From positions 1 through 30,039 of IMG/VR virus record IMGVR_UViG_3300017720_000042: a DNA stretch of 30,039 nt, one strand, 5' to 3'. Under the pieces are notes generated by a model. That model was not told the DNA's origin, ran no database searches, and saw only the letters and a list, made by a program, of their open reading frames with translations. This DNA is from a virus. Below are positions 12,295-27,996 of the stretch, one piece after another. Each line of letters starts with the position of its first letter. The stretch's first letter is position 1. Position numbers and translations under genes: made by a program.

Positions 12295-12299
12295 AATTT

Positions 12300-14258: not shown

Positions 14259-14674
14259 AATACTATATAGTCGTTATTATAAGAATTATCCTTTTTATAT
14301 TCTCCTTTGTTTAATTCGTAATTTTGGTTGTTTAATTGTTGTATAGGTTGGTTAGTACAAAATATTCTATCTATTGTATTTTTAAAACTCCTTTTATTTA
14401 CTTCGTCCCAAGTATCAGGACTTAAATTATATAAGTCTTCGTTAGTATTCCATACGTCATAATCTTGGTCTACTATAATATCGTAAAAATGTCCCTCTAC
14501 TAAATCAAATACGTCTGTTATTTGCAAATAGTCGTTTACTTGTATTATACTTGGAGAATAGAATTTTTCTTCGTTAGTTGTATCGTCCCTTAACTTAAAT
14601 TGTAATCCAATATTATATACTCTAGGAATAATATAAAATGTTTGAGGATCTGTAGTTGGTTTTAATACTTGCAT
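14255..14674 (-). CDS. Hypothetical virion protein (139 aa), first gene of the portal-lysis unit
   Basis: A 139-residue protein with a beta-rich N-terminal 90 residues (IPRVYNIGLQFKLRDD, SIIQVNDYLQITDVFDL, HFYDIIVD) and a tail of low complexity rich in N, Q and Y, ending YNNDYIVL. Small proteins with a beta domain and this 'RIFCTNQ' plus asparagine tail occur next to portal and tail-tube genes in phages of this kind, and a structural role is likely. It overlaps the portal by 4 bp. Late promoter motif L1 ends 4 bp upstream of its ATG and a terminator stands immediately before that, so a transcript appears to begin here. Confidence 0.65.
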   Translation of the reverse strand: MQVLKPTTDPQTFYIIPRVYNIGLQFKLRDDTTNEEKFYSPSIIQVNDYLQITDVFDLVEGHFYDIIVDQDYDVWNTNEDLYNLSPDTWDEVNKRSFKNTIDRIFCTNQPIQQLNNQNYELNKGEYKKDNSYNNDYIVL

Positions 14675-14678
14675 ATCT

Positions 14679-14705
14679 ATATAACGTAAAAAAATAAAAA
14701 TTTGC
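14679..14705 (-). promoter_or_regulatory. Late promoter motif L1 (GCAAAT-N12-ACGTTATAT)
   Basis: GCAAAT lies at 14700-14705 and ACGTTATAT at 14679-14687, with 12 bp between CAAAT and the second box. The start codon begins 4 bp later (14674). The -35-like box directly follows the T-tract of the terminator at 14707-14735, making a terminator-promoter joint. It should drive the portal, fibre and lysis genes. It is one of five copies. Confidence 0.8.
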
Positions 14706-14706
14706 C

Positions 14707-14735
14707 AAAAAAAAAGGCTACCTATAAAAGTAGCC
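14707..14735 (-). terminator. Intrinsic terminator after tail-tube-like gene
   Basis: On the minus strand GGCTAC and GTAGCC form a 6-bp stem round an 8-nt loop, followed by nine T residues (14707-14715). It ends the capsid and tail-tube transcript 25 bp after the stop codon. It lies directly upstream of late promoter L1. Confidence 0.93.
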
Positions 14736-14759
14736 GATTTTCAAAGGAAAACAAAATAA

Positions 14760-15317
14760 TTAAGGGTTAACCGTATTACTAGGGTTAATTTGTGTAGGTG
14801 CAGCTGCCGAAGCAGATATTGCACCCTCTACTACGCTTTCTTCTATAAAAAACGCAGGTAATTTTTCCATTCCTACTTGAGTTAACGTAAAGCCTGTTAA
14901 ATCGCCTCCGGCTGCTCCGGTTACGATAGTCCCCCCGCTACAATCTGTGCCATTTTCAGCACCGATAAGTAGGTAATTTTTGTTATAATCTTCTACAATA
15001 CAATAAGGTCTAGCATCGATAATTTTTATAAGTTCTTCTTGAGTTTCAACGTCCAAAAATGGTAGCGTTAAACTTAAAGTTTGCTCATAAAATACCGTCC
15101 CATTCTCTCTACTCGCATTAATTGTCTGCTCGAGGTTAGAATTACCTTTTAAATCATACTGAAAAAAAGCAGGAGTTCCCGCGAATCCGGTAATTACTCC
15201 ATTTGTTATTGATAGTGTACCTAGAGTACCAAAGTCCGCAAAATAAACAGCCTTTAGACCGCCCATTGAATTTTTGCAATTTAGCTCTCTACCCGTACTT
15301 AGTGCATCACAAGACAT
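14760..15317 (-). CDS. Major tail protein-like (tail tube)
   Basis: A 185-residue, beta-rich, low-charge protein. It begins 'CDALSTGRELNCKNSMGGLK' and continues AVYFADF, then 'FFQYDLKGNSNLEQT' and NGTVFYEQTLSL. A later segment 'YLLIGAENGTDCSGGT' precedes GFTLTQVGMEKLPAFF. This pattern, a cysteine-bearing N-terminus with 'GG.K.VY' and a late 'NG..LLG..NG', is one I associate with tail-tube proteins of Bacteroidota siphoviruses. It directly follows the major capsid gene and is the last gene before a strong terminator, as expected for a protein made in large amounts. A hairpin (15340-15363) lies in its leader. A head decoration protein is the main alternative. Confidence 0.65.
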   Translation of the reverse strand: MSCDALSTGRELNCKNSMGGLKAVYFADFGTLGTLSITNGVITGFAGTPAFFQYDLKGNSNLEQTINASRENGTVFYEQTLSLTLPFLDVETQEELIKIIDARPYCIVEDYNKNYLLIGAENGTDCSGGTIVTGAAGGDLTGFTLTQVGMEKLPAFFIEESVVEGAISASAAAPTQINPSNTVNP

Positions 15318-15339
15318 ATTTATAAGTTTTATATACCTT

Positions 15340-15363
15340 ATAGCCGAGCCGAAACCCGGCTAT
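15340..15363 (-). other. RNA stem-loop between capsid and tail-tube-like genes
   Basis: ATAGCCGGG pairs with its partner CTCGGCTAT (one G-U pair) round a 6-nt loop, in a very A+T-rich gap. No T-tract follows (AAGGTATATAAAAC), so it is not a normal terminator. It may protect the 3' end of the capsid message, act as a processing site, or set the ratio of capsid to tail-tube protein. Confidence 0.75.
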
Positions 15364-15385
15364 TTAGTATGATTAATTAAATTTA

Positions 15386-16387
15386 TTAAGATAAGCTATA
15401 TACTACAGCATCTTTAGGTACTCCAACTTGACAGCCTGCAAAAAATCTTACGATAACTCTTACATTATTACTTCCGTCTAAATCTGCCATATCTAGCAAC
15501 TTCACAGTTTGCTGAATATCACTTAATACTGAAGTTCCAAAGAATAAATTAGATTTTTCAGCCAATACTGCGTTAGTAGTAGGCATACCTGGGCACATAG
15601 CAACTTGAATACCGTCAAAAGTTAAAGCTGCTCCACCATTAGAATACCACATAGTACCTCTGTTATCCACACCTTGAGCACCTAAGCCTTGAGTAGCAAA
15701 ACCTCCTAAAGCTCTTACATACGCTTTGTATGCAGCTGTAGGAACGTATAGGTATAAATCGTCTTTACCATATACAGCAGGTAGCATAGCGTCTACTATA
15801 GATCCAAATTCGTCAATTACTGTACTTGAGTCCCAAGCAGTCTCAGCCGATACTACTTTTTGTGAGTTAGCCTCAGCTAATAATTTAGGTACGAAACCTT
15901 CAAACTGTCCTGAAGTTGTTCCGTCTCCTTGCCAAATGTTAATTTCTACTTTTTCTGCGATTTTTGCTGCAACGTGAGCTAGCATATAATCAGCAAAAGA
16001 GCCTGGTAAATCTACAAACGCTGAAGCTCCTTGTTCTAGGGCTAAATAGTCAGATTCGAAGTCAGACTTACAAATCTGTAGGTTTGTTTGATAGTTACCA
16101 ACTTCTAAAACTCTTTGTTCTAGGTTAATAGCATCTGCTGTTGGGTCGAAGTCGCAAGTTCCGTCTACTACGATATTTGACATATCTAGTTTTTTGATTA
16201 CTTCTTTGTACTTTACGTTAGGCTTAATTGTAACTAAACCTTTATCTAAAGTAGTTCCTGATAGTAACGCTGCTGCGATAAATTGACCGGCGAATTGTCC
16301 CTCATAGGTAGTAGTAATAGTACCTATAGAACCTGAGCCTGTAATGTCTCTAAGTGCAACGTTTCTGTTTTTTAAATTTCTGTTCAT
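15386..16387 (-). CDS. Major capsid protein (HK97 fold)
   Basis: A 333-residue protein with the look of an HK97-fold capsid subunit. A short flexible N-terminus (MNRNLKNRNVALRDITG) precedes the E-loop-like segment at about 40-85 (TIKPNVKYKEVIKKLDMSNI), the spine and P-domain region 'FADYMLAHVAAKIAEKVEIN' with IWQGDG (about 132-157), and an A-domain segment DLYLYVPTAAYKAYVRAL (about 210-227). The C-terminal part ends VRVIVRFFAGCQVGVPKDAV. It follows the scaffold gene by 11 bp and precedes the tail-tube-like gene. The base and residue composition (rich in A, G and V, with common codons) is that of a highly expressed gene. No cleavable long delta domain is evident, consistent with a separate scaffold. 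Confidence 0.88.
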   Translation of the reverse strand: MNRNLKNRNVALRDITGSGSIGTITTTYEGQFAGQFIAAALLSGTTLDKGLVTIKPNVKYKEVIKKLDMSNIVVDGTCDFDPTADAINLEQRVLEVGNYQTNLQICKSDFESDYLALEQGASAFVDLPGSFADYMLAHVAAKIAEKVEINIWQGDGTTSGQFEGFVPKLLAEANSQKVVSAETAWDSSTVIDEFGSIVDAMLPAVYGKDDLYLYVPTAAYKAYVRALGGFATQGLGAQGVDNRGTMWYSNGGAALTFDGIQVAMCPGMPTTNAVLAEKSNLFFGTSVLSDIQQTVKLLDMADLDGSNNVRVIVRFFAGCQVGVPKDAVVYSLS

Positions 16388-16398
16388 TTTAGTTATTG

Positions 16399-17013
16399 TT
16401 ATTTTAAATTTAGTTTAGATAATTTAGACATAACTCGGTCTAAAGTTGTATTCATATTTCTATTTTGCGAAAACGACATAGCCGGAGCTTTTTCTTCACT
16501 TTTAGGACTATGTTTCAAAGGCTTACGAGCAGCAAATTTATGCGACTTTAAGTCTTCTCTTACGTCTTCTTTTTCGTCATCAATTCCGTCTTTATAACCC
16601 TCTTCTTCTGCTTCAGGTATAGACTCAAACTTACGTTTAAGTTCTTCGACTTCCTTTTTAACTTCTTCTATAATTGGTGCTACAACCTCTACGACAGCTT
16701 CTATAACAGCTGCTACGTCTTCGGCTACCTCTTCAGGTGCTTCAATTATAACCTCTTCTGTTTCGAGTTCTTCCTTAACTCTAAATTCAGAGATAACCCC
16801 CTCTTCAGTTACAACTAACATACGACCGTCTTCGATCATATATTCGCCAACTGGTAAAGCGATTCTTTCTTCGTCAGATACGATAAAAACTGCTGAGTCT
16901 TTCTCAAAAGATTCTGCTTCGATTACCGTTCCATTATCCAAAATAAGCTGGGCTAAATTTACTTTCGCACCTAGCAGAGCTTTAATTTGGGTTAACATTT
17001 CAGTAGTATTCAT
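16399..17013 (-). CDS. Scaffolding protein-like
   Basis: A 204-residue, highly acidic protein just before the capsid gene. Residues 15-75 form a small beta domain (AQLILDNGTVIEAESF, ALPVGEYMIEDGRMLVV, GVISEFRV). Residues 80-135 are very rich in E and V with heptad spacing (VEVVAPIIEEVKKEVEELKR), a probable coiled coil. The C-terminal 50 residues are basic (SHKFAARKPLKHSPK, then SKLSKLNLK), as in scaffolds whose C-terminal helix binds the capsid subunit. The order protease, accessory genes, scaffold, capsid also fits. It should be removed or cleaved by the XkdF-like protease during head maturation. A weakly similar promoter-like sequence occurs before its start, but I do not call it. Confidence 0.7.
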   Translation of the reverse strand: MNTTEMLTQIKALLGAKVNLAQLILDNGTVIEAESFEKDSAVFIVSDEERIALPVGEYMIEDGRMLVVTEEGVISEFRVKEELETEEVIIEAPEEVAEDVAAVIEAVVEVVAPIIEEVKKEVEELKRKFESIPEAEEEGYKDGIDDEKEDVREDLKSHKFAARKPLKHSPKSEEKAPAMSFSQNRNMNTTLDRVMSKLSKLNLK

Positions 17014-17032
17014 ATATAATTAATTTAAGTGA

Positions 17033-17494
17033 TTATTTAATAAAATCGTTATTATTAGTATAATTAATAGTCTCTCTATATTTACTAATAAAGTCTTTAT
17101 AAACTCCGTCTGCTTCATCTACATAACGTCTATAGTCATCGTAGTTAGGTAAAACCTCAGTAGGATCTAAACCTAATCTATCCATTCCAGTATCAAAGTC
17201 TGCTAACAAGTTTTTAACTTCTTCTGCAATAAAAGGTAAATTACTAGCATTACCATTAATAGCCATTTCGTCAATTTCTGTTTTGATAGGGTTAGTCGCT
17301 TCAAACCATTGGTCTAATAAATCGTCTAACCTTTCGTAACCATAATAACTAGCGTCATCGAAAGCGTATTGTAATTCGTCTAGTCTATCTTCTAATTCAG
17401 ATACTAAACTTAAATTAGTTCTCTGCTCTTTGCTTAATTTTGTCTTAGGCAATTTGTTTAATATTGCTAAGGCTTTTTTTTCGTTAATTCCCAT
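17033..17494 (-). CDS. Hypothetical head-assembly region protein (153 aa), paralogue of 17687-18139
   Basis: A 153-residue acidic helical protein. By eye it aligns with the 150-residue protein at 17687-18139. Each has a segment that ends in 'DQW(F/Y)E' and follows 'L..L.Y...(D/E)', then a 'PFI.E.......D' segment, then 'LG(L/I)(D/E)P.(E/Q)(V/I).P...D'. The N-terminus is basic (EKKALAILNKLPKTKLSKEQ). The pair flank a 66-residue gene, between the protease and the scaffold. A duplication is likely. No fold is recognised; a role in procapsid assembly or maturation is inferred only from the neighbours. Confidence 0.65.
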   Translation of the reverse strand: MGINEKKALAILNKLPKTKLSKEQRTNLSLVSELEDRLDELQYAFDDASYYGYERLDDLLDQWFEATNPIKTEIDEMAINGNASNLPFIAEEVKNLLADFDTGMDRLGLDPTEVLPNYDDYRRYVDEADGVYKDFISKYRETINYTNNNDFIK

Positions 17495-17684
17495 AAGTTT
17501 TTTTTATATATCCACAAATTTTAGGAGCAGCTTCAGCCCCATATCTTTTAGTTTGTTCTGCTATACATTCGTCCCAAGGATAAGACTCTAAGTCCATTCC
17601 TTTTTTAGACATTCTATCTACTATCATTTCAACAGTATCATAAGAACTAAACATTTTTTTAAAAACTGTATTTAAAGTGCTCAT
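17484..17684 (-). CDS. Small phage protein with 'PWDECI..Q...YG.EAAPKICG' motif (66 aa)
   Basis: A 66-residue protein whose C-terminal half reads YPWDECIAEQTKRYGAEAAP and then KICGYIKKTYGN. This 'F/W-x-x-C-(I/V)-x-(E/D)....G-x-x-x-A-x-x-(I)-C-(G/A)-x-I' pattern is a small conserved module in many tailed phages, often near or fused to head genes, with two conserved cysteines. Its function is unknown to me. It overlaps the 153-residue gene by 11 bp and is 2 bp from the 150-residue gene. Confidence 0.72.
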   Translation of the reverse strand: MSTLNTVFKKMFSSYDTVEMIVDRMSKKGMDLESYPWDECIAEQTKRYGAEAAPKICGYIKKTYGN

Positions 17685-17686
17685 AA

Positions 17687-18139
17687 TTATACTGATTTAC
17701 TTTCGTTTTCAAATTCTTTTTTCTGCTCTTCAAAAGCCTCTATATAAGCGTAGCCGTCCTGTATAACGTTAATATGGTCGTTTATACTAGGATATATTTG
17801 TTCAGGCTCTATTCCTAATTCATAAGCAGTTTCGTATATAGTGTCTATTAATTCACTATCTTTATTTAAGTCTGCTTCAGTAATAAAAGGCTCTGCATTT
17901 TGAAAATATACTGAATATATTTCTCTACCTAATTCATACCATTGGTCAAATCTATCAGGAAACCATTCATTTACAAAATAACCTAAGTTATCTATTTCGT
18001 CATTAATTTCATCAAATTGACCATAGCTAAAATCGTCTAAAATACTTAGCGTAGCCTTATATTTTTTTAATTGTACTCCTTTTAATTCTTTTGTCTTATC
18101 CTTAAAAAGTTTACTAAATACTCTGTTTTTTGTATTCAT
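17687..18139 (-). CDS. Hypothetical head-assembly region protein (150 aa), paralogue of 17033-17494
   Basis: A 150-residue, acidic, helix-rich protein with aromatic segments: 'DNLGYFVNEWFPDRFDQWYE' and 'AEPFITEADLNKDSELIDTI', followed by LGIEPEQIYPSINDH. It shares these landmarks with the 153-residue gene at 17033-17494. It is the first gene after late promoter motif L2, which ends 4 bp before its ATG, and so opens the capsid transcript that runs to the terminator at 14707. The role in head assembly is inferred from position. Confidence 0.68.
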   Translation of the reverse strand: MNTKNRVFSKLFKDKTKELKGVQLKKYKATLSILDDFSYGQFDEINDEIDNLGYFVNEWFPDRFDQWYELGREIYSVYFQNAEPFITEADLNKDSELIDTIYETAYELGIEPEQIYPSINDHINVIQDGYAYIEAFEEQKKEFENESKSV

Positions 18140-18143
18140 ATCT

Positions 18144-18170
18144 ATATAACGTTAGTTTAAAATTATTTGC
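18144..18170 (-). promoter_or_regulatory. Late promoter motif L2 (GCAAAT-N12-ACGTTATAT)
   Basis: GCAAAT at 18165-18170, 12-bp spacer, ACGTTATAT at 18144-18152. The ATG at 18137-18139 begins 4 bp after the motif. From the motif to the start codon (ACGTTATATAGATATG) it is identical to L1. It should drive scaffold, capsid and tail-tube expression up to the terminator at 14707-14735. Confidence 0.82.
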
Positions 18171-18174
18171 ATTT

Positions 18175-18330
18175 TTAAGTTAATCTAGTAATAGATCCGA
18201 TACCCTGAGCCCATAAAGTCCCGTCGCAGCATTTACGACTATAAGTATTTTCGTCTTTACATAGACAACCTCTTTTTCCGTTTTTTGGAGATACTACCGG
18301 TAAAGGTATTGGTTGGTTAAAGTTGCTCAT
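18175..18330 (-). CDS. Small cysteine-rich phage protein (51 aa)
   Basis: Open frame of 51 codons from ATG 18328-18330 to TAA 18175-18177. The key segment is RGCLCKDENTYSRKCCDGTL followed by WAQGIG. Its CxC and CC pairs and the closing 'LWAQGIG' are a pattern I know from tiny proteins in head gene clusters of flavobacterial phages; zinc binding is possible. It overlaps the protease gene by 14 bp and ends 4 bp before promoter L2. Function unknown. Confidence 0.8.
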   Translation of the reverse strand: MSNFNQPIPLPVVSPKNGKRGCLCKDENTYSRKCCDGTLWAQGIGSITRLT

Positions 18331-18931
18331 TTTCTATAAGTGCTTTTTTTATTTTTAATAAAGTAAGTCCGTCTTCGATTTGTTGTTTATGAGCTTTTAC
18401 TTCGGTTTGATATTTTTCTCCGAACATACCCTCTATACTAAAACCATTTAACGACCCTGACTCTTTAATTTCGTTCCAAATTTTATCATTGTGAACTCTA
18501 ACAGTTCCAACCCAAGTTCCGACAGGTAAATCTAAATTATAGATATTACTTTTATCTTGTTCTTTAGATTCTACAATCCAAGATTCAACTAGTGTTAGAC
18601 CTTTTACTTTTTCTATATGCTCATAACTAGCGTTATTTTGGTAGCCTCGCTGCATATATAATTCAGAAGCTAAACGAACAGTATCTTTATTAAAAAATAT
18701 ATAATAAGGCTCTTCGTCTGCTCCGTCTTTACGATAAATTGTTTTATTAGGGACTAGCAAAGCTCCTAATAATAGTCTTTGGTCTTCATCGACCTGTTTA
18801 AATTCGTACTGCTTTTTGTCGTCTTTTAAAGCGACCCAATTTTCCTCAATAGCAGGGTGCTCTACAATACTTATGCAGTCGACCCCAGAATCTAAATCGT
18901 TTTCATCTATAATTAATTCTACAATTTTCAT
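18317..18931 (-). CDS. XkdF-like prohead serine protease
   Basis: A 204-residue protein with the signature of the phage XkdF-type (S78-like) prohead protease. The N-terminus has 'CISIVEHPAIEENWVAL', which marks the protein in many phages. 'NNASYEHIEKVKGLTLVESW' follows with the likely catalytic H105. The core continues with IVESKEQDKSN, then DLPVGTWVGTVRVHNDKIW, and SLNGFSIEGMF with the likely catalytic S165. It would trim scaffold and capsid proteins before DNA packaging. It lies four genes upstream of the scaffold. Late promoter motif L3 ends 4 bp upstream of its ATG. Identity is strong; which acidic residue completes the site is not clear. Confidence 0.88.
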   Translation of the reverse strand: MKIVELIIDENDLDSGVDCISIVEHPAIEENWVALKDDKKQYEFKQVDEDQRLLLGALLVPNKTIYRKDGADEEPYYIFFNKDTVRLASELYMQRGYQNNASYEHIEKVKGLTLVESWIVESKEQDKSNIYNLDLPVGTWVGTVRVHNDKIWNEIKESGSLNGFSIEGMFGEKYQTEVKAHKQQIEDGLTLLKIKKALIENEQL

Positions 18932-18935
18932 ATTT

Positions 18936-18962
18936 ATATAACGTTATTAAATTAATATTTGT
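18936..18962 (-). promoter_or_regulatory. Late promoter motif L3 (ACAAAT-N12-ACGTTATAT)
   Basis: ACAAAT at 18957-18962 (one change from GCAAAT), 12-bp spacer, ACGTTATAT at 18936-18944. The start codon of the protease begins 4 bp later. It occupies almost the entire gap between the tape-measure stop (18965) and the protease ATG (18931). Confidence 0.8.
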
Positions 18963-18964
18963 GT

Positions 18965-20581
18965 TTATATAGAACTTTCAGTAATAGTATTACGTTCTAA
19001 TTCTTGAGCAGTAGTTACGTCTCCGGCTACTACATAGGATCTACTAGGCTTATTTTCTTGGTCTGCTATAGCTGAAGCTAAGTTAGAAGTTCCACCCGTA
19101 CCGACTACGTTAAAAGCAGGCATAGTTGGACCAGGAGCACCACCACCCCCACCACCTTTAACGCCTTTAGGTTTAGGTACAGTTTTAATTTGTTGAACGG
19201 TTTTCATACCAGCTATTAAAACCCCTGCTGAAGCTACAGCTTTTTGTATAACATCAAATGGAGCAGGCAAAGTAGATTCATTAGCCCAAACTTCAGAAAT
19301 ACCCTGATAAGTGTTTATTGTTGCTGCTGCAATAGCGGCTGCTTTACCGGCTGCTGAATTTTTTCCTAGTACTTCAGCTAAAGTTCCAAAGGTCATTTTC
19401 ATTAAACCTATTTTTTGGTCTGCTACTGATTTTTCTCTAGCCGATTCTTCTTTGTCATAATTGTCGTTAGACTCAGCTATTTGAGAATTAAAGTTTTGGT
19501 TTATTTCTTCTATAGCTCGTTTCTTCATAAACTCCGAAGCAGTACTAGCTTCTACTTCAGCAACTAGCCTTTGACGTTCTAAGTCTAGAAGCATAGCGTC
19601 ATTTTCTTTAGTTTTTTCTAAATTAGCTTCCCAGTATTGTCGTCTTAACCCAGCAACCATTTCTGTATCTTTAACGTATAACGCTAACTTATCGGCTGCT
19701 AACTTTGCTTCGGCTGCTAGTTCGTCAGCCCTAGCCTTATCTGCAATAGCTTTACGTTTATCTCTCTCTGCTTTTTCGTTTTCGGTTATGGTATTCTCCA
19801 TTCCCGCTTTCATATTTTTTAGCTTCAATAAATTAGCCTGAGCAGTTTCTATAGCTTCGTCTGCTTCTTCGTCTTCAGTACTAATAATAAAAGAAGCCAT
19901 ATTATTAAAAATAGCAGAAGAATTACTTCCTGTAATATAATCGTAGGCTTTCATTATCCAGCCTATAGGTCCAGTCAAAAATTGTATTAACCCGGCTAAA
20001 AAGTCCTGGGATCGTTGGGCAGTTTCTTTTTGTATTTTACGTTGCTCGATTTGAGTAGTTATTTGAGCCTCTAGAGCTTTAATAGTTTCTCCTGTTTGAG
20101 CAATTTTCATTTGCAATATTTCCTTATCAGTTTTGCCTTGCTGTTTAAGTATATTTTCTGACTGAGAAATAACGTCTAATTGTTTCTGGGCAATTTCTGC
20201 TTGTTTAGTTTGGTTAGCTAGTACTTCTTTTTGTTCACTAGAAACCCCTGACATAACCGATTTAATGTCGTCCCAATAAGCAACTACTGTACCTAGAGCA
20301 ACTACTAAAGCCCCTATACCTGTAGCTATAATAGCTCCTTTTAAAAGATTCATAGAAGCAGCGAAACCTCTTACTGCTACTATAGTACCCTTAATCATTT
20401 TTTGGAGGTTACGACCTTGAGTAACCATACCCCCTGTAATAGCGTCTAACCCTTGTACAGCGTCTCGGTTTTTATCTAAGGTTTTATTAAATTTAGAAAC
20501 ATCGCCTGATAATTCCTTAAATGCTGCAGCCGCCCCTTTCGACTTAACGACTACTTCAATACCTATTTTTTCAGTTGCCAT
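18965..20581 (-). CDS. Tail tape-measure protein
   Basis: A 538-residue protein. The start 'KIGIEVVVKSKGAAAAFKEL' is typical of tape measures. A helical segment leads to a hydrophobic stretch (about residues 80-102, KGAIIATGIGALVVALGTVV), a usual feature for crossing the host membrane. A coiled-coil rich region runs through residues 120-390. Then comes a small-residue segment 'LGKNSAAGKAAAIAAATINT' with YQGISEVW (about 410-435), conserved near the ends of many tape measures, and a glycine-rich linker (KGVKGGGGGGAPGP). At roughly 1.5 angstrom per residue, a tail near 80 nm is implied. It overlaps the small upstream gene by 19 bp. Confidence 0.9.
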   Translation of the reverse strand: MATEKIGIEVVVKSKGAAAAFKELSGDVSKFNKTLDKNRDAVQGLDAITGGMVTQGRNLQKMIKGTIVAVRGFAASMNLLKGAIIATGIGALVVALGTVVAYWDDIKSVMSGVSSEQKEVLANQTKQAEIAQKQLDVISQSENILKQQGKTDKEILQMKIAQTGETIKALEAQITTQIEQRKIQKETAQRSQDFLAGLIQFLTGPIGWIMKAYDYITGSNSSAIFNNMASFIISTEDEEADEAIETAQANLLKLKNMKAGMENTITENEKAERDKRKAIADKARADELAAEAKLAADKLALYVKDTEMVAGLRRQYWEANLEKTKENDAMLLDLERQRLVAEVEASTASEFMKKRAIEEINQNFNSQIAESNDNYDKEESAREKSVADQKIGLMKMTFGTLAEVLGKNSAAGKAAAIAAATINTYQGISEVWANESTLPAPFDVIQKAVASAGVLIAGMKTVQQIKTVPKPKGVKGGGGGGAPGPTMPAFNVVGTGGTSNLASAIADQENKPSRSYVVAGDVTTAQELERNTITESSI

Positions 20582-20712
20582 AGCAATTCGGTTTTAAGTT
20601 GTTTAAATGATTCTTTTAGACCTGTACTTAGTTTATTTTTACCTTGTGCAATTCTAATATTTTCTGTTTCTCCGTTTGCCTCCTGTAATAAATCTATAAT
20701 TAGTTTCAACAT
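20563..20712 (-). CDS. Small protein upstream of tape measure (49 aa)
   Basis: Open frame of 49 codons, ATG 20710-20712 to TAG 20563-20565, starting 2 bp after the stop of the 743-residue gene and overlapping the tape-measure start by 19 bp. The protein begins MLKLIIDLLQEANGETENIR and has a basic, helical C-terminal half. The place is where many siphoviruses carry the frameshifted chaperone, but here that gene is at 25811. No family recognised; possibly a tail-assembly accessory protein. Confidence 0.68.
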   Translation of the reverse strand: MLKLIIDLLQEANGETENIRIAQGKNKLSTGLKESFKQLKTELLWQLKK

Positions 20713-20714
20713 AA

Positions 20715-22946
20715 TTAAATATTTAAGTCTTGAGTTAATAATTCTAATTCGCTTTTACCTGTAGCAAAATTTGTTTTTATACTATTAATCATATAAGTAT
20801 TATTTCCTATAACAAACCTATTAGCTAGAGATAATTCAAACAACACCGAATCAGGCAAATAAGCAGTAACTTTAACTAATCTTTTAGACTGCTCGAATAT
20901 TCCCTGTATATACCTTTGATGAAATTCAGTAAATAATGTTTGTTGGTTAATTGCTCCTGTAAATTCGTTAGTTTCAGGGAAAAAAGCTAAACTTCTAGAA
21001 AACGCACTACTACCCACACTAGCAGAAGCAGGTATTCTATAATTTTCTATATATCCAACAGAATTTTCTGTAGGCATAAAACTAAAAAGTGTACCCTCGT
21101 CAATAAATGTTGCTTTATGTAGTAATGGTTTACCCATTATAGGCTTTCTATCATTATCTACTGTCCAACCCCATTGTAATTGAGTTTGAGAATCAGGTAA
21201 AGCAGTGTCCCAAATTCTCTCATATTTCTGAAACTCAAAAGGAACTTCTATAGTATAAGGTTTCCCTACAAATACTCCGTCTGTAGCACCTCTATAGTTT
21301 TCTGTTCCCCATTCTTGACCAAATAATTGATTATGATAATCTGCAAAAAATGTTTCTAAACCTTTATATTTATATTTAACCATATTATAAGGTAAAGTAT
21401 TACTTACGTCTTGTTCTTTAGCGTCTACATACTGAGTAATATCTATTGTTTTATAACCATTTATATAATTAGTGTCTCCAAAATAAAACTTATTATAATC
21501 TTTTAAAATTATAGTTTGTTTCTGATTTGTTTGATTAAATTTTACCTCTGCTATAATATTAAACATTTTAAAAATACCTGATAAAAATTCTATTATTTTT
21601 ATTTTTGGTACTTGGTCAGTAATGTTAAATTCAAAATTTGGGTTAAAAGTTACATTAGATATTTGAAATTCACTACGCCAATAATCAAGATTATAAATTG
21701 GAAAATATATACCTCTAGTGATTCTAAATTCAATTAAATCAAAGGCTATAAGAGAAGTAGGGGCTATAATAAGTCTAAAAGTTCCGTTTGTTACCTGCTG
21801 TTGTGCTGAGGGTACAATTTCTTGGTTTCCTATAACTAAGTCTAAAGAATCTACTACTGTTCCATTATATAATAATTGAGCCGAATAAGTAGTATTTAAG
21901 TAAGCGGTTAAAGGTCTTATAAAAACTCTTATCTCATTACCTGTTTGACCAAAAAAACTACTAGAGTTTTGCTCTACATTACTAGGAACAGCTATAGTTA
22001 TATCTGACCCATTACTAGTAGCTAAATTTACTGAAGAAGTCGAACTACTATTAGTAGGGTTTAAAGGAAATGTATTTACTATTTGAGGGAATGTCTGAGG
22101 TACGTTGTCATCAGTATTTAAAACTCTTCCCTGTGTTTTACTTAAATGTAAAAATATACTAGTAAAATAACTATCATTAAAAATAGTGTCTGCTGATCTA
22201 TCAAATTCTATTTCAGGATATGATTCTTCTATAGCTTTAAATATTAATTCTACTCTAAAAGAGGGCTTTAAGTCTTCCCAATAACAACCTTGTATATTAC
22301 CTGCTTGAGGATATAAATTCCCGTTTCCTTGAATATAAGGAGAAGCCGAATTATAAAACCAACGTTTCTCGTTAGAAATTAAAGTAACCGGAGTAACATT
22401 AGTATAAGTAACTCCGTCAACTACTTTAGAGTCAGAGGGGAAATTTTCTAACCTAGCTCGTATGTTAGCTGCATCATAAGGAAAACTAAAGTTATCTAGC
22501 CATATTAAATTTCTTAAAGTGTCTTCTCCAAATAATTGAGTTAAGGCTACAGTATTACCAAAAAAAGTTAGCTTATAATCTTTAGGTCTATTGTTTTCTA
22601 TTCCTGAGCTTTCTAATTTTATATATCCGTCTTGAAATGGACTAGTATTTAATTCTAGTTTAGCAGGTATTTTAATTCTTGAATCAAAGCCTGAAATACC
22701 ATTGTTATAAAAATGTCTAAATATTTTATTATTTTGTTTACTAGTTGGTACTGTAAATTTCCTAGTAAATGGAGTAAATACTTTAGCAGGGTCTTTAACG
22801 TTTTTTACTGTCTGAGTTAAAGTAACGCTTTCATCTTTAAACATTTCTACTTTTTCCCAAGGAAAATTTAATGGGTTTTGTATCTCTTCAATAGTACCTC
22901 CTGTAGTATTTCTAATATATAATTCTAATTTTTTTTTACTAGGCAT
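20715..22946 (-). CDS. Large distal tail / baseplate-like protein (743 aa)
   Basis: A 743-residue, beta-rich protein. Its N-terminal region (about 30-70: VEMFKDESVTLTQTVKNVKD and FTPFTRKFTVPTSKQNN) and the following FNNG-like and 'GFDSRIKIPAKLELN' with PFQDGYIKLES are a pattern shared by large tail proteins of Bacteroidota phages, including some in the crAss-like group. The C-terminus 'FELSLANRFVIGNNTYMINS' then 'GKSELELLTQ' resembles the closing segment of distal tail proteins. It overlaps the 325-residue gene by one base (TAATG) and precedes the tape measure. It probably forms the tail tip or baseplate hub. No peptidoglycan hydrolase motif is visible. Confidence 0.72.
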   Translation of the reverse strand: MPSKKKLELYIRNTTGGTIEEIQNPLNFPWEKVEMFKDESVTLTQTVKNVKDPAKVFTPFTRKFTVPTSKQNNKIFRHFYNNGISGFDSRIKIPAKLELNTSPFQDGYIKLESSGIENNRPKDYKLTFFGNTVALTQLFGEDTLRNLIWLDNFSFPYDAANIRARLENFPSDSKVVDGVTYTNVTPVTLISNEKRWFYNSASPYIQGNGNLYPQAGNIQGCYWEDLKPSFRVELIFKAIEESYPEIEFDRSADTIFNDSYFTSIFLHLSKTQGRVLNTDDNVPQTFPQIVNTFPLNPTNSSSTSSVNLATSNGSDITIAVPSNVEQNSSSFFGQTGNEIRVFIRPLTAYLNTTYSAQLLYNGTVVDSLDLVIGNQEIVPSAQQQVTNGTFRLIIAPTSLIAFDLIEFRITRGIYFPIYNLDYWRSEFQISNVTFNPNFEFNITDQVPKIKIIEFLSGIFKMFNIIAEVKFNQTNQKQTIILKDYNKFYFGDTNYINGYKTIDITQYVDAKEQDVSNTLPYNMVKYKYKGLETFFADYHNQLFGQEWGTENYRGATDGVFVGKPYTIEVPFEFQKYERIWDTALPDSQTQLQWGWTVDNDRKPIMGKPLLHKATFIDEGTLFSFMPTENSVGYIENYRIPASASVGSSAFSRSLAFFPETNEFTGAINQQTLFTEFHQRYIQGIFEQSKRLVKVTAYLPDSVLFELSLANRFVIGNNTYMINSIKTNFATGKSELELLTQDLNI

Positions 22947-23923
22947 TATCTAATATTATTAATTATTTCGTTTGCTATTTCAAAGTCTAAAGTATATTCG
23001 ACTAAATAATCGTTTAAGCTAGTTTTTTTCAATAACTCCTTAGAAGTTAAAACTACAGGATAAGTTTCAGTTGCATCAGTTAACCAAATAAAAGGAGACA
23101 GCATTAATTCCTGTAAATAAGGGTTATAACATTCTCCTACTAAACCTGTACTTAATTTTATTTTTTGCTGACCTACAAAATTATATGTTTTCTTATAATG
23201 GGCAGTAGTACTATAACTAGGGTTAGCTTTGTTAAGGTCTAATACATTAGATATGTAATTAGTATTACTTACACTAGTTGTGTCTATACTTTTTTTGAAA
23301 AACCATAAGTCCTGAAGAGCACCCCATTTATTTAAAAAAGTTATTTTAGTATGAGGATATTTACATTCTCTTATCCTATTTATTTTTATGTCTGTTCCGT
23401 CTACGTCTGTAGTAGTGTCATTAGGCAGAACTGTTTCGTCTCCTAAAACATCGCTTCCGTCATTATAATATATTCTAGTAGTTTTTCCATTAGGTAAATA
23501 AATTTCTGTACCTGATAATAAAATTTGATTTGTAGGTAGTGAATAATTAAGTCCGTCTTGAAATTCTGAGTAACCCTCTAAACCTGTAACTAACCCTGTT
23601 ATAGTACCTCCTAATTGAGCAGTAGTAGAAAAATTTAATAGTTGGTAAGTCATATCTACATTTGGAGGCAAAGCAGGTAAACCAGTTTGACCATTATAAA
23701 AAATTTCTATTAAATCTTTAATTAAGTCTGATATGTCAAAACTATTATAACCTTTGGCTACGCCTGCGTTATCTTTAAATTGGAAAGCGTTTTTAGTAAT
23801 AGTATATAAAGGGTTAGAAGAAGTTCCTCCCGTATAATATAATAAAAGTATAGAATAAGATAAGTCTGTAACCTCTCCTGTATATACTATGTAAGGACTT
23901 CTTGTAAATATTTTTGTAGCCAT
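22946..23923 (-). CDS. Tail-associated structural protein (325 aa)
   Basis: A 325-residue, beta-rich protein. It begins 'TKIFTRSPYIVYTGEVTDLS' and continues YSILLLYYTGG, then SFDISDLIKDLIEIFYNG. A later part 'CKYPHTKITFLNKWGALQDL' with WFFKKS is the kind of sequence seen in tail proteins that partner the large distal tail protein in Bacteroidota phages. It ends with VEYTLDFEIANEIINNIR. Tight coupling to the next gene (one-base overlap) and to the one before (2-bp gap) suggests joint assembly in the tail tip. No enzyme motif. Confidence 0.68.
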   Translation of the reverse strand: MATKIFTRSPYIVYTGEVTDLSYSILLLYYTGGTSSNPLYTITKNAFQFKDNAGVAKGYNSFDISDLIKDLIEIFYNGQTGLPALPPNVDMTYQLLNFSTTAQLGGTITGLVTGLEGYSEFQDGLNYSLPTNQILLSGTEIYLPNGKTTRIYYNDGSDVLGDETVLPNDTTTDVDGTDIKINRIRECKYPHTKITFLNKWGALQDLWFFKKSIDTTSVSNTNYISNVLDLNKANPSYSTTAHYKKTYNFVGQQKIKLSTGLVGECYNPYLQELMLSPFIWLTDATETYPVVLTSKELLKKTSLNDYLVEYTLDFEIANEIINNIR

Positions 23924-23925
23924 AA

Positions 23926-24570
23926 TTAAGTTTTTCTAGGTCTTCTACTTGTACTAAATTGAGTATAAGCAGCATTTGTTTTTAAAGGATCTAAAGTTTC
24001 TAAAGTTTTAAGTTGTATATCAACTAAGAACGAAGCTCTTAATTTTTGTATAATTCTAGAATCGTATTCTTTTTGTGCATTAGAAAAAAAGTAACTAGGA
24101 GATAACCCTGATAAATATATACTTCTAGTCATTAAATAGACTAAACTTTTTCTAGGAATAAATCTACCTTTTTCGTCTCTTATACCTGGAATACCTTTAG
24201 TAATAGTCCATTTATCAATAGCACCTCTAAGCCCAGGTTTACCTTTACCACTTCCGAATTTATAAGGAGACATAGGAGCTTTATTTATACCATACCATTT
24301 TGACCCCTTAGTTTCTTTACCTTGTTTGTTTACTCCTGGAGCAGGTAATTCGTTTGGGTTAGCCCCTTGTACCCCTTGGTCTATAAATTTACCATAAGCT
24401 AAAGAATAAAAATTTAAAGTACCTCCCCAGTCGAATTCGTCTAATATTTGATAGTCAAGACTATCGGCTAAAGCTCCGGTATTATTATTTTTTTCTAGGT
24501 TAGCCCTAGCAGAAGAAATTACGTTTAAAGCATAGGCTTGTAATTCTTTATATACTTCTTCGCTTAACAT
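23926..24570 (-). CDS. Neck / tail-completion protein, HK97 gp10-like (214 aa)
   Basis: A 214-residue basic protein. The N-terminal helix and 'NVISSARANLEKNNNTGALA' followed by DSL is the typical start of HK97 gp10-like tail-completion proteins (helix, then 'tG.L..Si'). 'FYSLAYGKFIDQGVQG' matches the 'A.yve.Gt' strand of that family. An inserted loop of about 50 residues (GKETKGSKWYGINKAPMSPY and beyond) is rich in G, K and P. SPSYFFSNA around 160 and a helical C-terminus complete it. It should sit at the head-tail interface. It overlaps the upstream gene by 7 bp. Confidence 0.7.
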   Translation of the reverse strand: MLSEEVYKELQAYALNVISSARANLEKNNNTGALADSLDYQILDEFDWGGTLNFYSLAYGKFIDQGVQGANPNELPAPGVNKQGKETKGSKWYGINKAPMSPYKFGSGKGKPGLRGAIDKWTITKGIPGIRDEKGRFIPRKSLVYLMTRSIYLSGLSPSYFFSNAQKEYDSRIIQKLRASFLVDIQLKTLETLDPLKTNAAYTQFSTSRRPRKT

Positions 24571-25046
24571 AAGTAAATATCGTTTTTAAATGTTATGTCA
24601 AAAGTACAAGCCCAACCTGCTAATTGATTTTCAAATCTTTGGTAAAAAGGCTCACAGGTCATACTCCCCTCGCATTGAAAACCTTGAAGTCTTAAATCAG
24701 ATCCTTTATACCTACCAAATAATCTATTACCTACAGCTAACATTGTGTTTAATATGTTCTGCTCATTTGTAACCCCATAAAATATATCAGTTTTTCTATC
24801 CTTAGAAATGTCTACTATATCCATTAAAATTACTGTAACGTTAAAAGTTATTAGTTGACCTGATTCATCTACATTAGCATTATTAGGGACTATATGTCCT
24901 ATAGGAAATATACTTTGTTTGCTTAAATCAATTTGTGCTAAGTCTCCATAAGTACAAGTATTTATACTTACGTCTTCTAGTAGATTAACTTTTAAAGAAT
25001 CTAACATTGTAAAAAAAGCAGTTGCTCCTATATTATTATTTGCCAT
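24564..25046 (-). CDS. Tail terminator / completion-like protein (160 aa)
   Basis: A 160-residue protein of mixed alpha/beta type. It has a helical start (residues 5-25), a beta region with 'QLITFNVTVILMDIVDISKD' (about 63-82), a helix 'NEQNILNTMLAVGNRLFGRY' (about 94-113), and a closing pair of strands 'GWACTFDITFKNDIYLC'. This order resembles tail-terminator proteins of siphoviruses, which cap the tail tube. Its start overlaps the end of the frameshifted chaperone frame (stop 25036-25038), so translation of the two is linked. Confidence 0.58.
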   Translation of the reverse strand: MANNNIGATAFFTMLDSLKVNLLEDVSINTCTYGDLAQIDLSKQSIFPIGHIVPNNANVDESGQLITFNVTVILMDIVDISKDRKTDIFYGVTNEQNILNTMLAVGNRLFGRYKGSDLRLQGFQCEGSMTCEPFYQRFENQLAGWACTFDITFKNDIYLC

Positions 25047-25811
25047 TTTTAAATTTATTTTTTATGTTTTGTGCCTCAGCCTCTTCTAATTCTTTTTGAT
25101 ACTGAAGCATTGTTAAACAGTGATGAACAGGTTTACGAGTAACCTCTTCTACCTTTGTTATGTCTCCGTTACTTAATTTATATATACTATTATACCAACC
25201 ATATTTTACTCTAAAATCTTCGTTTGCTCCGAAACTTTTTTCTTCAGTCTGTTCTCCTGTTTCAGAGTAGAGGTTAGAGTAACTTCTAATAATTCCGTCT
25301 CTAAACTGTAAAAAAAAACCAAGGCTGATACTGCTACAGAAGTAGGCATATTTTTTAATACCTCTGCATAATGAACTCCGTCATAAGGTTTAAGTTTATA
25401 CTTACCTTTATAGGTCATATCAATAGGACGATATAAAACAGCCATAGCTTTATTCATAGTAGCCCAATTAGTTAAATTAGTTTCTGCGTCTATGTATTCT
25501 CCAAAACTTAGATCCTGTAAGTCAGGAACAAAACCAAACTCTAAGCCTCCGAGCTTGAATCTAGTTATAAGACTAGGTTTTTGATTAAGTACTTTATTGA
25601 GTTTATTTACAGCTTTGTCTACGTCTGTCATTTTATACTGCAGACCCTCTTTAGGTTTTAGCCCACAGAATATTTCTAGCATTTTAAGACTAGCCTCTTC
25701 GCTTGTATAGTCTTCGTCAGATTTACCCTCAAACTCCATAAGGAATTTTTGATATTGGTATAGTGGTATGCTATGTAAATCTTTAGGTATTAATAATTCT
25801 ATTTTCTTCAT
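25036..25811 (-). CDS. Tail assembly chaperone, long product by -1 frameshift (about 258 aa)
   Basis: This is the long product read from the same ATG as the entry at 25206-25811. At 25311-25317 the ribosome meets T TTT TTT inside a run of nine T residues and can slip back by one base. The -1 frame then stays open for 91 codons to TAA 25036-25038. The extension begins LQFRDGIIRSY and contains KYGWYNSIYKLSNGDITKVE and RKPVHHCLTMLQYQ, which are well-formed protein segments that no ATG of its own can reach (the only upstream ATG in the gap, at 25200-25202, is out of frame and gives 9 codons). The total is 167 + 91 residues. Siphoviruses make G and GT chaperones in this way. Direct mass-spectrometric proof is absent, and transcript slippage at the T9 run is an alternative mechanism. 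Confidence 0.85.
25206..25811 (-). CDS. Tail assembly chaperone, short product (201 aa, G-like)
   Basis: The unshifted product is 201 residues, mainly helical, beginning MKKIELLIPKDLHSIPLYQY, then 'FLMEFEGKSDEDYTSEEASL' and EIFCGLKPKE. The pattern 'IPLYQYQ.....E' with a later 'FGFVPDLQDLSFGEYIDAET' occurs in a family found between neck and tail genes of Bacteroidota phages. Proteins of this type bind the tape measure during tail assembly. The last 34 residues, after the slippery site, are basic and polar (TLKQENRLKKKVSEQTKILE) and are replaced in the longer product. Promoter motif L4 ends 7 bp before the ATG and a terminator lies just upstream of it. In most siphoviruses this gene is next to the tape measure; here five genes lie between. 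Confidence 0.8.
   Translation of the reverse strand: MKKIELLIPKDLHSIPLYQYQKFLMEFEGKSDEDYTSEEASLKMLEIFCGLKPKEGLQYKMTDVDKAVNKLNKVLNQKPSLITRFKLGGLEFGFVPDLQDLSFGEYIDAETNLTNWATMNKAMAVLYRPIDMTYKGKYKLKPYDGVHYAEVLKNMPTSVAVSALVFFYSLETELLEVTLTSTLKQENRLKKKVSEQTKILE
25311..25317 (-). promoter_or_regulatory. Slippery heptamer T TTT TTT for -1 frameshift
   Basis: In the zero frame the codons are GTT TTT TTT TAC (25308-25319), so the P- and A-site tRNAs can both re-pair after a one-base slip. The run is nine T residues on the coding strand (25310-25318). After slippage the next codons are TTA CAG TTT AGA. No obvious strong hairpin was found within 10 nt downstream. Confidence 0.8.
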
Positions 25812-25818
25812 ACTATAT

Positions 25819-25844
25819 ATATAACGTTAAAATTTTAAATTTGA
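25819..25844 (-). promoter_or_regulatory. Late promoter motif L4 (TCAAAT-N11-ACGTTATAT)
   Basis: TCAAAT at 25839-25844, an 11-bp spacer (one shorter than the other four copies), and ACGTTATAT at 25819-25827. The ATG of the chaperone gene begins 7 bp later, 3 bp farther than in L1-L3. The -35-like box lies 5 bp from the T-tract of the terminator at 25850-25878. Confidence 0.76.
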
Positions 25845-25849
25845 GGCAT

Positions 25850-25878
25850 AAAAAAAACCCCCTAGAAAATCTAGAGGG
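25850..25878 (-). terminator. Intrinsic terminator closing the small inserted unit
   Basis: CCCTCTAGA and TCTAGGGGG form a 9-bp stem (one G-U pair) with a 3-nt loop, followed by eight T residues (25850-25857). It ends the transcript of 25901-26319 and is followed at once by late promoter L4. Confidence 0.94.
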
Positions 25879-25900
25879 TAATTTAACTAAACACTAATTA

Positions 25901-26074
25901 TTAAACAAATTCTTTTTCTAAATGTTCAAATTCGTTTTCTCTGAGTTTTAATTCTTCAAAGGATAATCTAGCAAGGTATAATTTGTTGTCGTAGTCGTCC
26001 CTTTGTTTAGTATAGTATTCTACGTTCCATTGAGCCTCCTTTAGGAGTTTCTCGTATCTAGTTTCTTTTTCCAT
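25901..26074 (-). CDS. Small coiled-coil protein of the inserted unit (57 aa)
   Basis: Open frame of 57 codons. ATG 26072-26074 overlaps the stop of the 81-residue gene by one base (TAATG), and the stop is 22 bp before a strong terminator. The product is highly charged and helical throughout, starting MEKETRYEKLLKEAQWNVEY, with a heptad-like pattern in its second half (SFEELKLRENEFEHLEKEF), so it should form a coiled coil. No family recognised. Being in a unit with its own promoter and terminator, it may serve an accessory function such as host takeover or exclusion of other phages, but this is only inferred. Confidence 0.75.
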   Translation of the reverse strand: MEKETRYEKLLKEAQWNVEYYTKQRDDYDNKLYLARLSFEELKLRENEFEHLEKEFV

Positions 26075-26319
26075 TATCTTATAGCAAATTGTTCGTCAGT
26101 ATAAGAAGTATAAAAAGTCTTAGGTAATTGCTTAGTAATAGCTAGTGCTAAAGAATTATTATTATTAGCATATTTACATATCATAGTAGATAGTTTACCT
26201 TGAAGCTCAAATAGTTCTTCTTGGTCTAGCATATCACATAAGAAGAAATCGTCTCCTAAAGTGTTGGCTATTGCTTTTACTAACTTAGTGTTAGTGTACT
26301 CGTTTTTTGTTTTCATCAT
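26074..26319 (-). CDS. Hypothetical protein of the inserted unit (81 aa)
   Basis: An 81-residue protein, helix-rich and with several acidic residues: 'TLGDDFFLCDMLDQEELFEL' in the centre, then ICKYANNNNSLALAITKQLP and an aromatic tail (KTFYTSYTDEQFAIR). It has two adjacent methionines at the start; either may be used. There is no membrane segment or known motif. Upstream are a consensus host-type promoter and a folded RNA leader that ends 17 nt before the ATG, so expression may respond to that RNA. Downstream it overlaps the 57-residue gene. The whole unit interrupts the usual order from terminase to structural genes. Confidence 0.75.
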   Translation of the reverse strand: MMKTKNEYTNTKLVKAIANTLGDDFFLCDMLDQEELFELQGKLSTMICKYANNNNSLALAITKQLPKTFYTSYTDEQFAIR

Positions 26320-26336
26320 ATAGTATTTAATTAACC

Positions 26337-26441
26337 AAAACCTATTTAGTAGTTTACGTCTGTTCAGGGGCTCGGTTTACCTGAGACGACAATTATTCTC
26401 ATTGCTGAGGTTTTCGGTCTTACTGTATATCTGCCTACTAA
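26337..26441 (-). ncRNA. Structured RNA leader or small RNA (putative riboregulator)
   Basis: The minus-strand RNA starting near 26443 can fold into: P1, TTAGTAG/CTACTAA (26435-26441 with 26346-26352); P3, CTCA/TGAG closed by a GCAA tetraloop (26398-26409); P2, GTCT and CAGG (84-87, 80-83 of 26300s) with CCTG and AGAC (26365-26368, 26358-26361). A 7-bp pseudoknot, AAAACCT (26408-26414) with AGGTTTT (26337-26343), is also possible. G+C content is clearly higher than in the surroundings. It has a promoter directly upstream, no terminator before the next gene, and ends 17 nt from the ATG at 26319. I do not recognise the class. A packaging signal (pac/cos) next to terL is an alternative. Confidence 0.6.
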
Positions 26442-26449
26442 CGACAATA

Positions 26450-26481
26450 CAAATATAGTAAATATAAATGATATTAACAAA
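26450..26481 (-). promoter_or_regulatory. Consensus Bacteroidota promoter (TTTG-N20-TATATTTG)
   Basis: TTTG at 26478-26481, a 20-bp spacer and TATATTTG at 26450-26457, an exact match to the -7 consensus TAnnTTTG of the primary Bacteroidota sigma factor. The predicted start, 5-7 nt downstream, falls just before stem P1 of the RNA at 26337-26441. It lies in the gap right after the large terminase gene. Confidence 0.8.
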
Positions 26482-26498
26482 CGTTGTGTATAAAACTT

Positions 26499-27656
26499 TT
26501 ATCGTATAGCGTAACGAGCTACCTTTGGTCTAGCTAGTTTTTTGATAATACTATAACGGACTGAATCAATACTATGATCGTTTTTTTGTACAGGAACATT
26601 AAGCAGAGTTCCGTTTTTATCTTCTTGCCATTTATAGTTTTTAAACTCCTTTAAAGTATTCATAGACCTGGAGGTTATATGGAGCTTGTATCTTTTAAGT
26701 AAGTCAATACCCATATTAATAGAGTCCCTACCTTTTTGAGCAGCCTTAACATTATATCCGTATCTATGCAGTTCGTCTATAGACTTAGGCTCGGCTGAGT
26801 CTGCAAAGATTTCTATTTGTCTAGTTATTCCTAGTTCTACAAATTTGTCTTTTATGTCTCGGTTAGTTAAACCATAACTATAAAATAATTCATCTATATA
26901 TAATTTGTCTTGATAGACGTAAGAAAAAACTAAACAGCTAGGATCGTTGACAAAGCCCCAATCTAAACCTCCTGCTATAAACTCAGCCTCAGCAGGTATT
27001 TTATCTATTTCTAAATAAGTAAATATAGTTGCTCTATTCCTACCTACCTGACCTAAACCATAAACCCTCCAATAGTCAGCGTCAGTATCTTTAAGGCGTT
27101 CTATTTCTTTTACTATGTCAGGGTTTAGAAACCTATTATCTTTATAAGTTGTTATATTAAAAAAAGCATCGTTCCTGGTTTTAACTTTGCTATATATCCA
27201 GGAGTATTCATCGGAGGGGTTATAATCTAAAATAAGGTTAGACTCAGTTCTAAATAGAATTTGATTAAATGATTCGTAGCTACATTCGTTAGCCTCGTTT
27301 ATAAAGGCTATATGTCTTTTACGTCCTTTAAGTCTTGAGGGTTGGTCGATACTCACAAACTCGAATAAATTGTTGTTTAGTTTATATTCGCTATTACTTT
27401 TATTATGAGCTTGGTCTTCGTATAGATTATACGTCTCAAGTATGTCGAAGAAGTCTCTCATTACTGTAGCCCTTAAAGCAGGATAGGTAGCCCTAAATAT
27501 TGTAATGGTTTTATTAGTATGTTTCATAGCATACCCAAAGATTAACCAAAGAATTATATTATAGGTTTTACCTGAACGAGTTCCTCCTTGAAATATTTTT
27601 ATTTTATGATCTGACTTATGCAGATAGTCATATACTATATTAGTCTGTACTTTCAT
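26499..27656 (-). CDS. terL: Terminase large subunit
   Basis: A 385-residue packaging motor with ATPase and nuclease domains, on the short side for the family but complete. Walker A is GGTRSGKT (24-31). Walker B is HIAFINEANE (115-124) with the catalytic glutamate. The coupling region follows near 145-150 (DYNPSDE). The RNase H-like nuclease has aspartates at D232 (GGLDWGFVNDPS), D286 (IFADSAEP) and D364 (NDHSIDSVRY). The sequence is of the PBSX/terminase-3 kind. It cuts concatemeric DNA and drives it through the portal. It overlaps the small subunit by 17 bp. The downstream gap is occupied by a promoter and RNA element of a different unit. Confidence 0.96.
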   Translation of the reverse strand: MKVQTNIVYDYLHKSDHKIKIFQGGTRSGKTYNIILWLIFGYAMKHTNKTITIFRATYPALRATVMRDFFDILETYNLYEDQAHNKSNSEYKLNNNLFEFVSIDQPSRLKGRKRHIAFINEANECSYESFNQILFRTESNLILDYNPSDEYSWIYSKVKTRNDAFFNITTYKDNRFLNPDIVKEIERLKDTDADYWRVYGLGQVGRNRATIFTYLEIDKIPAEAEFIAGGLDWGFVNDPSCLVFSYVYQDKLYIDELFYSYGLTNRDIKDKFVELGITRQIEIFADSAEPKSIDELHRYGYNVKAAQKGRDSINMGIDLLKRYKLHITSRSMNTLKEFKNYKWQEDKNGTLLNVPVQKNDHSIDSVRYSIIKKLARPKVARYAIR

Positions 27657-27996
27657 CTATTGAGCCTAAAACTTCTACTTCAAATTTCCTAGCTTCAGGT
27701 ATAGCAATTTCTTGACGTTCTACATAACCTCGGCTTTTAGCCCTAGTTTTTAAATAGAATATAATTGAAGCAGTGTCGTTAGCTTTGATTCTCTCATAGA
27801 GCTTAGACTCTACAAAATCTATAGCTGACTCAGTTATGTCTTGGACTTCTTGTTTGTAGTCTTCGTCTTCTTTTAACCACCTATAATGAGTCTGCCTACT
27901 AATATTTACAGCTAGACAACTTGTAGAAACTATGCCTAGGTTAAAGGTCAAGGCTTCTATCATATCCTTTTTTTTAGTGTAACTTTTGTCATTCAT
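27640..27996 (-). CDS. terS: Terminase small subunit
   Basis: A 118-residue protein with an N-terminal helix-turn-helix (about 10-37: DMIEALTFNLGIVSTSC then VNISRQTHYRWLKED), an 'SR.T.YrWl..D..' recognition helix common in phage small terminases. A helical oligomerisation region follows (ESAIDFVESKLYERIKANDT) and then 'ASIIFYLKTRAKSRGYVERQ', typical of the family C-terminal to the HTH. It recognises the packaging site and feeds DNA to the large subunit. It overlaps terL by 17 bp. Late promoter motif L5 ends 5 bp before its ATG, inside the 3' end of the preceding gene. Confidence 0.9.
   Translation of the reverse strand: MNDKSYTKKKDMIEALTFNLGIVSTSCLAVNISRQTHYRWLKEDEDYKQEVQDITESAIDFVESKLYERIKANDTASIIFYLKTRAKSRGYVERQEIAIPEARKFEVEVLGSIDESTD

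Follow-up and report, generated by a model that had tools for sequence, protein, structure and literature searches.

The window analysed here (the whole stretch of DNA, 30,039 bases) is an IMG/VR virus record of a marine bacterial virus. On its minus strand, an open reading frame at 25206-25811 starts with ATG and encodes a protein of 201 amino acids, which matches phrog_32199. This frame, designated the 0 frame, runs through nine consecutive T's at 25310-25318 (minus strand, register GTT TTT TTT TAC), inside which the heptamer T_TTT_TTT lies at 25317-25311 in 0-frame register, and its product, the short product, consists of an N-terminal domain and a tail of 34 codons past the T run, which is the candidate slip site. 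In the -1 frame of the same strand, an extension at 25036-25311 comprises 91 codons, from 25311 to 25039, and the TAA stop at 25038-25036; its translation after the -1 shift reads LQFRDG...KFKNGK and matches phrog_38404 with an E value of 0.0023. The long product obtained by joining both frames has about 258 residues, the first 167 of which are common to the short product.

The frame arrangement described in the original prediction is correct. Indeed, the 201-residue frame passes T TTT TTT in register at 25311-25317, the -1 frame is open for exactly the 91 codons that follow the run, and the extension stops just inside the next gene, the ATG of which is found at 25046-25044; the gap between the stop of the 201-aa frame and this gene, given as 160 bp, measures 159 bp (25205-25047). 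In addition, the extension domain was said to have no start codon of its own, which holds because, from 25380 to 25036, the -1 frame contains no ATG, GTG or TTG other than an ATG at 25110, far into the extension and deep in the domain.

The surrounding genes are arranged in the order terminase small and large subunits (the latter at 26499-27656 on the minus strand, assigned to Terminase_3 by Pfam), two small open reading frames, a hairpin, the frameshift gene, the phrog_30964 and phrog_29822 genes, two larger genes, tape measure protein, head protease (18317-18931), a virion structural gene (15386-16387) and portal (12300-14258). The hairpin at 25857-25879 (minus strand, -15.4 kcal/mol, z -3.7), which resembles an intrinsic terminator and is followed by a T run, sits between the upstream small open reading frame and the frameshift gene; its strength suggests that a separate promoter for the tail operon may follow it directly. 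The next gene at 24564-25046 (minus strand, 160 aa), whose start overlaps the end of the extension, belongs to phrog_30964, a group of unknown function in PHROGs. It is followed by a 214-aa gene at 23926-24570 (minus strand, phrog_29822), the counterpart of which in Nonlabens phage P12024L shows a weak match to 'tail completion or Neck1 protein' (phrog_5, E 4e-4).

The tape measure protein at 18965-20581 (minus strand, phrog_24676, E 2e-23) is encoded by the fifth gene downstream of the frameshift gene, so that the early remark on a distance of five genes, unlike the usual adjacency, was right. To place this distance, 16 records were checked, namely the window, P12024L and 14 further IMG/VR records, which were selected by length among those containing the 338 loci described below. 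The terminase is located upstream of the frameshift gene in 16/16 records and the tape measure model phrog_24676 matches in 8/16, about 4.5-7.5 kb downstream (in one of them, G004, only with the ends joined); where the model matches, the distance is kept and it looks normal for this clade. The module order of the window, with tail genes between terminase and head genes (11788-27996), is unusual. Two further observations were made in the window: residues 405-441 of the portal contain an above-cut-off match to PF12518 (DUF3721), and a 905-aa protein at 8947-11664, possibly a fibre or adhesin, shows a weak YadA head-repeat match (PF05658) below the cut-off.

A homologous gene was found by tblastn in the Nonlabens phages P12024S and P12024L (Inhavirus), in which the same T9 joins the same two frames. 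They share with the window the gene pair, the -1 extension and the neighbours phrog_30964 and phrog_29822, and differ in that their protein has about 30% identity to that of the window and is listed in GenBank as two hypothetical proteins (P12024L_40/_41). Further relatives were gathered from IMG/VR with the 0-frame protein and with a fused alignment, the patterns of which include the slip site. To counter the resulting bias, samples were also drawn with search patterns off the slip site (the next gene, motifs of the N-terminal part, and a motif of the extension only), and the frame of the extension was placed by HMMs of the two halves.

The conservation of the extension in homologues, proposed earlier as a check, was examined in this way, and the extension was found in the -1 frame first in 258/258 and then in 338/338 loci. 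The T run has a length of 9 in 285 of the 338 loci, 10 in 50 and 12 in 3; these counts take in the window's own copy and overlapping copies of the same contigs, and for the 275 distinct 300-nt sites the corresponding numbers are 228, 45 and 2. Clustering at 85% protein identity gave 149 clusters, drawn from 327 of the 338 loci, with a pairwise identity of the N-terminal part of at least 23% (median 45%). Beyond the 0-frame stop, the extension frame is free of stops in 130/130 testable clusters, whereas stops close the two remaining frames in 130/130 and 128/130. Substitutions in the extension fall mainly on the third codon position (536 vs 265 and 133 at the others), and the substitution pattern of the extension is that of a region under purifying selection. 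A frame-by-frame substitution count shows that both frames are constrained in the overlap, the -1 frame slightly more. The 0-frame tail has a length of 25-84 codons across 103 clusters, and the homology of the extension starts at the T run in most alignments. Outside the viral records, a scan of a genome collection (84,980 species) gave one locus of the family, on a contig of a Bacteroidetes MAG.

The prediction that the T run joins the two frames in a programmed, that is conserved, way, from the 0 frame into the -1 frame, and so gives a short and a long product, is strongly supported by the 338/338 loci. The conservation shows that both frames are used, and we infer that both proteins are made; this is a real and deeply conserved two-frame tail gene.

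Flavobacterium phage 6H, which was examined for a weak BFVD match, was excluded from all counts, as it contains only a T6 run, its frames are not one simple -1 fusion and the family HMMs gave nothing significant. In its record, about 300 bp without annotation (10047-10352) follow a 191-aa gene (10352-10927), the length of which fits the weak BFVD match R9VW65, and a stretch that is open in another frame may correspond to an extension of this kind, unless the record contains frame errors. Among the IMG/VR records, one of 35351 bases (G011, locus L194) contains the frameshift gene and the terminase twice each, near both ends, and is possibly a chimeric or concatenated contig.

Ordinary decoding of the gene would give the short protein of 201 amino acids, whereas a fraction of decoding events would enter the -1 frame at the T9 and give the long protein of about 258 amino acids with a helical C-terminal domain. 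This may come about in two ways. RNA polymerase may slip on the run of at least nine T's, so that some mRNAs with one extra U would put a normally translating ribosome into the -1 frame; alternatively, in a classical ribosomal -1 frameshift on T_TTT_TTT, the tRNA-Phe of the P and A sites would re-pair one base back. Both would produce the same peptide (VFF/LQF at the junction), and since a -1 slip and one extra U yield an identical protein, the conservation of nucleotides is here the sole evidence on the mechanism.

An in-frame heptamer of the X_XXY_YYZ type, as used by ribosomal sites, is indeed present throughout: T occupies positions -8 to -1 in 103/103 clusters and T_TTT_TTT is in register in all of them. 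The ribosomal shift is also what lambda and other tailed phages usually employ, according to PMC5009743. The third base of the second Phe codon, that of the A site, is however T in 149/149 clusters. A change to C at this base would be doubly silent in 121/149 clusters, yet it was never seen, whereas C is found in 47/161 of the other doubly silent T/C sites of the overlap. On the tree, 13-29 T/C changes occur at other conserved Phe columns vs 0 at the A-site column, and a pattern search targeted at a slip site with TTC returned 120 loci, 64 of them in the family, with 0/64 TTC and runs of 9 or 10 only. The E. coli shift ranking in PMC4066793 is A_AA.G >> U_UU.C > U_UU.U, so that a TTC codon in the A site would be at least as shifty there, which speaks against the ribosome, although the A site of a flavobacterial ribosome might require UUU.

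The length of the run was considered in the same manner. Runs of at least 9 T's exist in three registers (NTT TTT TTT T, TTT TTT TTT C and GCT TTT TTT TTG), and parsimony on the tree gives at least 10 register changes and 69 changes of the flanking context, with the run never below 9. When the 3' flanking T was lost, which happened 3 times, or the 5' T was lost (GCT), another T was gained each time; such offset losses speak against the ribosomal shift, but they are few, and relatedness was weighted by parsimony alone. When the heptamer and the residues were held constant and the flanks drawn at random among synonymous codons, 97% of draws had a run of at least 9, which would let the heptamer alone explain the long runs, and all 149 clusters reach at least 9 in 2/300 of the same draws. 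Since synonymous draws mostly reach 9 anyway, the argument that 9 rather than 7 T's are kept depends on few events.

Runs of this kind are avoided in the other genes of the same genomes. Within 571 genes (355 kb) from the loci of 103 clusters, 1 sense run of at least nine T's was observed vs 6.4 expected, and 8 runs of at least nine A's vs 30.3 expected, with 0/100 synonymous shuffles as low; the avoidance is visible already at T8 (4 vs 16.6) and T7 (38 vs 61.6). A similar pattern, the avoidance of slippage-prone runs in bacterial genomes, is described in PMC1088944. Replication slippage could be an alternative cause of such avoidance.

Stimulatory elements, which are common but not obligatory at ribosomal sites, were not found. 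Windowed folding of the RNA downstream of the slip site gave a mean z of about 0 for offsets of 0 to +60 across 103 clusters, no stimulatory structure was seen in the RNA downstream of the window's own site (z 0.09), and SD-like motifs upstream of the slip site were present in 8/103 clusters vs 20/412 control positions. The missing stimulator counts against the ribosomal shift as weak evidence, because phage tail frameshift sites can do without one. PMC12421855 reports that Flavobacterium johnsoniae rarely uses Shine-Dalgarno sequences and frameshifts poorly at prfB; by analogy, such traits would make a ribosome-independent route plausible, and they prove nothing.

Taken together, because the A-site T is fixed, the run has at least 9 T's in three registers, long runs are avoided and stimulators are missing, we favour transcriptional slippage by RNA polymerase, to which we give somewhat better than even chances, whereas the classical ribosomal shift on the heptamer seems to us quite possible but not probable. 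Of the original prediction, the conserved -1 joining thus stands, while the ribosome, as in lambda G/GT, is one candidate for the slipping machine, the nucleotide pattern leaning to transcription; the prediction was probably too quick on this point.

As for the identity of the protein, AlphaFold2 with a 79-sequence alignment gave a model of the 0-frame product with a pLDDT of 93, and the extension was modelled as helical with moderate confidence (pLDDT 81). No convincing match was obtained in the PDB by sequence or by fold, and no convincing named match in PHROGs, BFVD or, among the window proteins, in Pfam, in which the 79 members showed only scattered weak matches. In BFVD, the matches are viral proteins without characterised function, that of P12024S among them, and a single weak one (E 0.22) bears the name tail assembly chaperone. 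The model phrog_166 ('tail protein') matched in 8/79 members and gave nothing in HK97, lambda, A118, TP901-1, P12024L or 6H. A family profile search of lambda, HK97, A118 and TP901-1 was equally without match.

The gene was named tail assembly chaperone because of its genome position and its short/long design. Neither the sequence nor the fold gave a convincing match to a known chaperone, and we regard the name as a reasonable guess by analogy, and a fairly probable one. The pair would then work like lambda G/GT, in which many short and few long copies assist tail tube assembly on the tape measure. It is on the other hand possible, though less probable, that the frame change is real and that the protein is something else, e.g. 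a factor for the neck or for tail completion with a short and a long form, as would suit a gene that has the terminase on one side and predicted neck/tail genes on the other, is some 5 kb away from the tape measure and has no homology to known chaperones. Against this, a short/long pair in a late tail operon marks chaperones of the G/GT type, and no other phage tail pair built in this way is known.

Seven BFVD proteins of 226-267 aa (A0A516L611, A0A516L5A8, A0A6J5N0W0, A0A6J5SVK3, A0A6J7WDG4, A0A6J5MY57 and A0A6J7WJY4) match the models of both domains, the extension match being weak in some of them (E up to 0.15). More distant viruses thus seem to encode the long form as a single chain, which speaks for a real long protein, and the frame change would be particular to this clade rather than common to the whole fold family.

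That the extension is a separate gene, as in the GenBank annotation of the P12024 phages, is very improbable, and an independent second gene was rejected for want of a start codon of its own, the -1 frame of the window offering none until 25110, deep in the domain, and the homology beginning at the T run in most alignments. A sequencing or assembly error in the T run of a truly single-frame gene, which the error-prone nature of homopolymers and the apparent single-chain proteins of distant viruses might suggest, is practically refuted by the same offset in 338/338 relatives from many assemblies and two isolate genomes, never with a frame-restoring run, and by the 0-frame tails of 25-84 codons in 103 clusters.

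Transcriptional slippage and the chaperone role combined lead to the proposal that the large, P12024-related and mostly uncultured phage clade sets the ratio of a short and a long tail assembly protein through programmed slippage of RNA polymerase rather than ribosomal frameshifting, with a run of 9-12 T's as the obligatory site, which we put at slightly under an even chance. If true, this would be an independent solution to the ratio problem of lambda G/GT, and it may fit flavobacterial-type ribosomes, which rarely use Shine-Dalgarno pairing. A literature search showed neither this gene pair nor a phage tail chaperone that relies on transcriptional slippage, most subscription papers being outside the search. 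Regardless of the mechanism, the analysis joins two genes that are listed as separate unknowns (P12024L_40/_41, or phrog_32199 and phrog_38404) and provides a function lead for both. In this clade, the long protein may continue to escape annotation programs that seek only single frames or ribosomal heptamers. In addition, a natural site with hundreds of aligned examples lends itself to a clean test of the idea that RNA polymerase, by slipping on a homopolymer, can take the place of ribosomal frameshifting in the same assembly task.

Compared with lambda G/GT and HK97 gp13/14, the gene shares the design of a short protein and a long protein extended in the -1 frame from overlapping frames, the location in a tail operon and the low-ratio design, all of this known here from the genes. 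It differs from lambda G/GT in that no sequence or fold similarity was detected, in that it comes after the terminase and some 5 kb ahead of the tape measure, not directly upstream of it, a position that is usual but not strictly defining, and in its slip site of at least nine T's, which is GGGAAAG in lambda. With the known slippage systems on nine A's or T's (Thermus dnaX, IS elements and Shigella mxiE) it has in common a coding homopolymer of at least 9, here at the junction in 338/338 loci and avoided in other genes, and, as predicted from the sequence, independence of the register with one extra base leading to the fusion. It differs from them in being a phage tail gene, and in that the run is kept across a whole phage clade.
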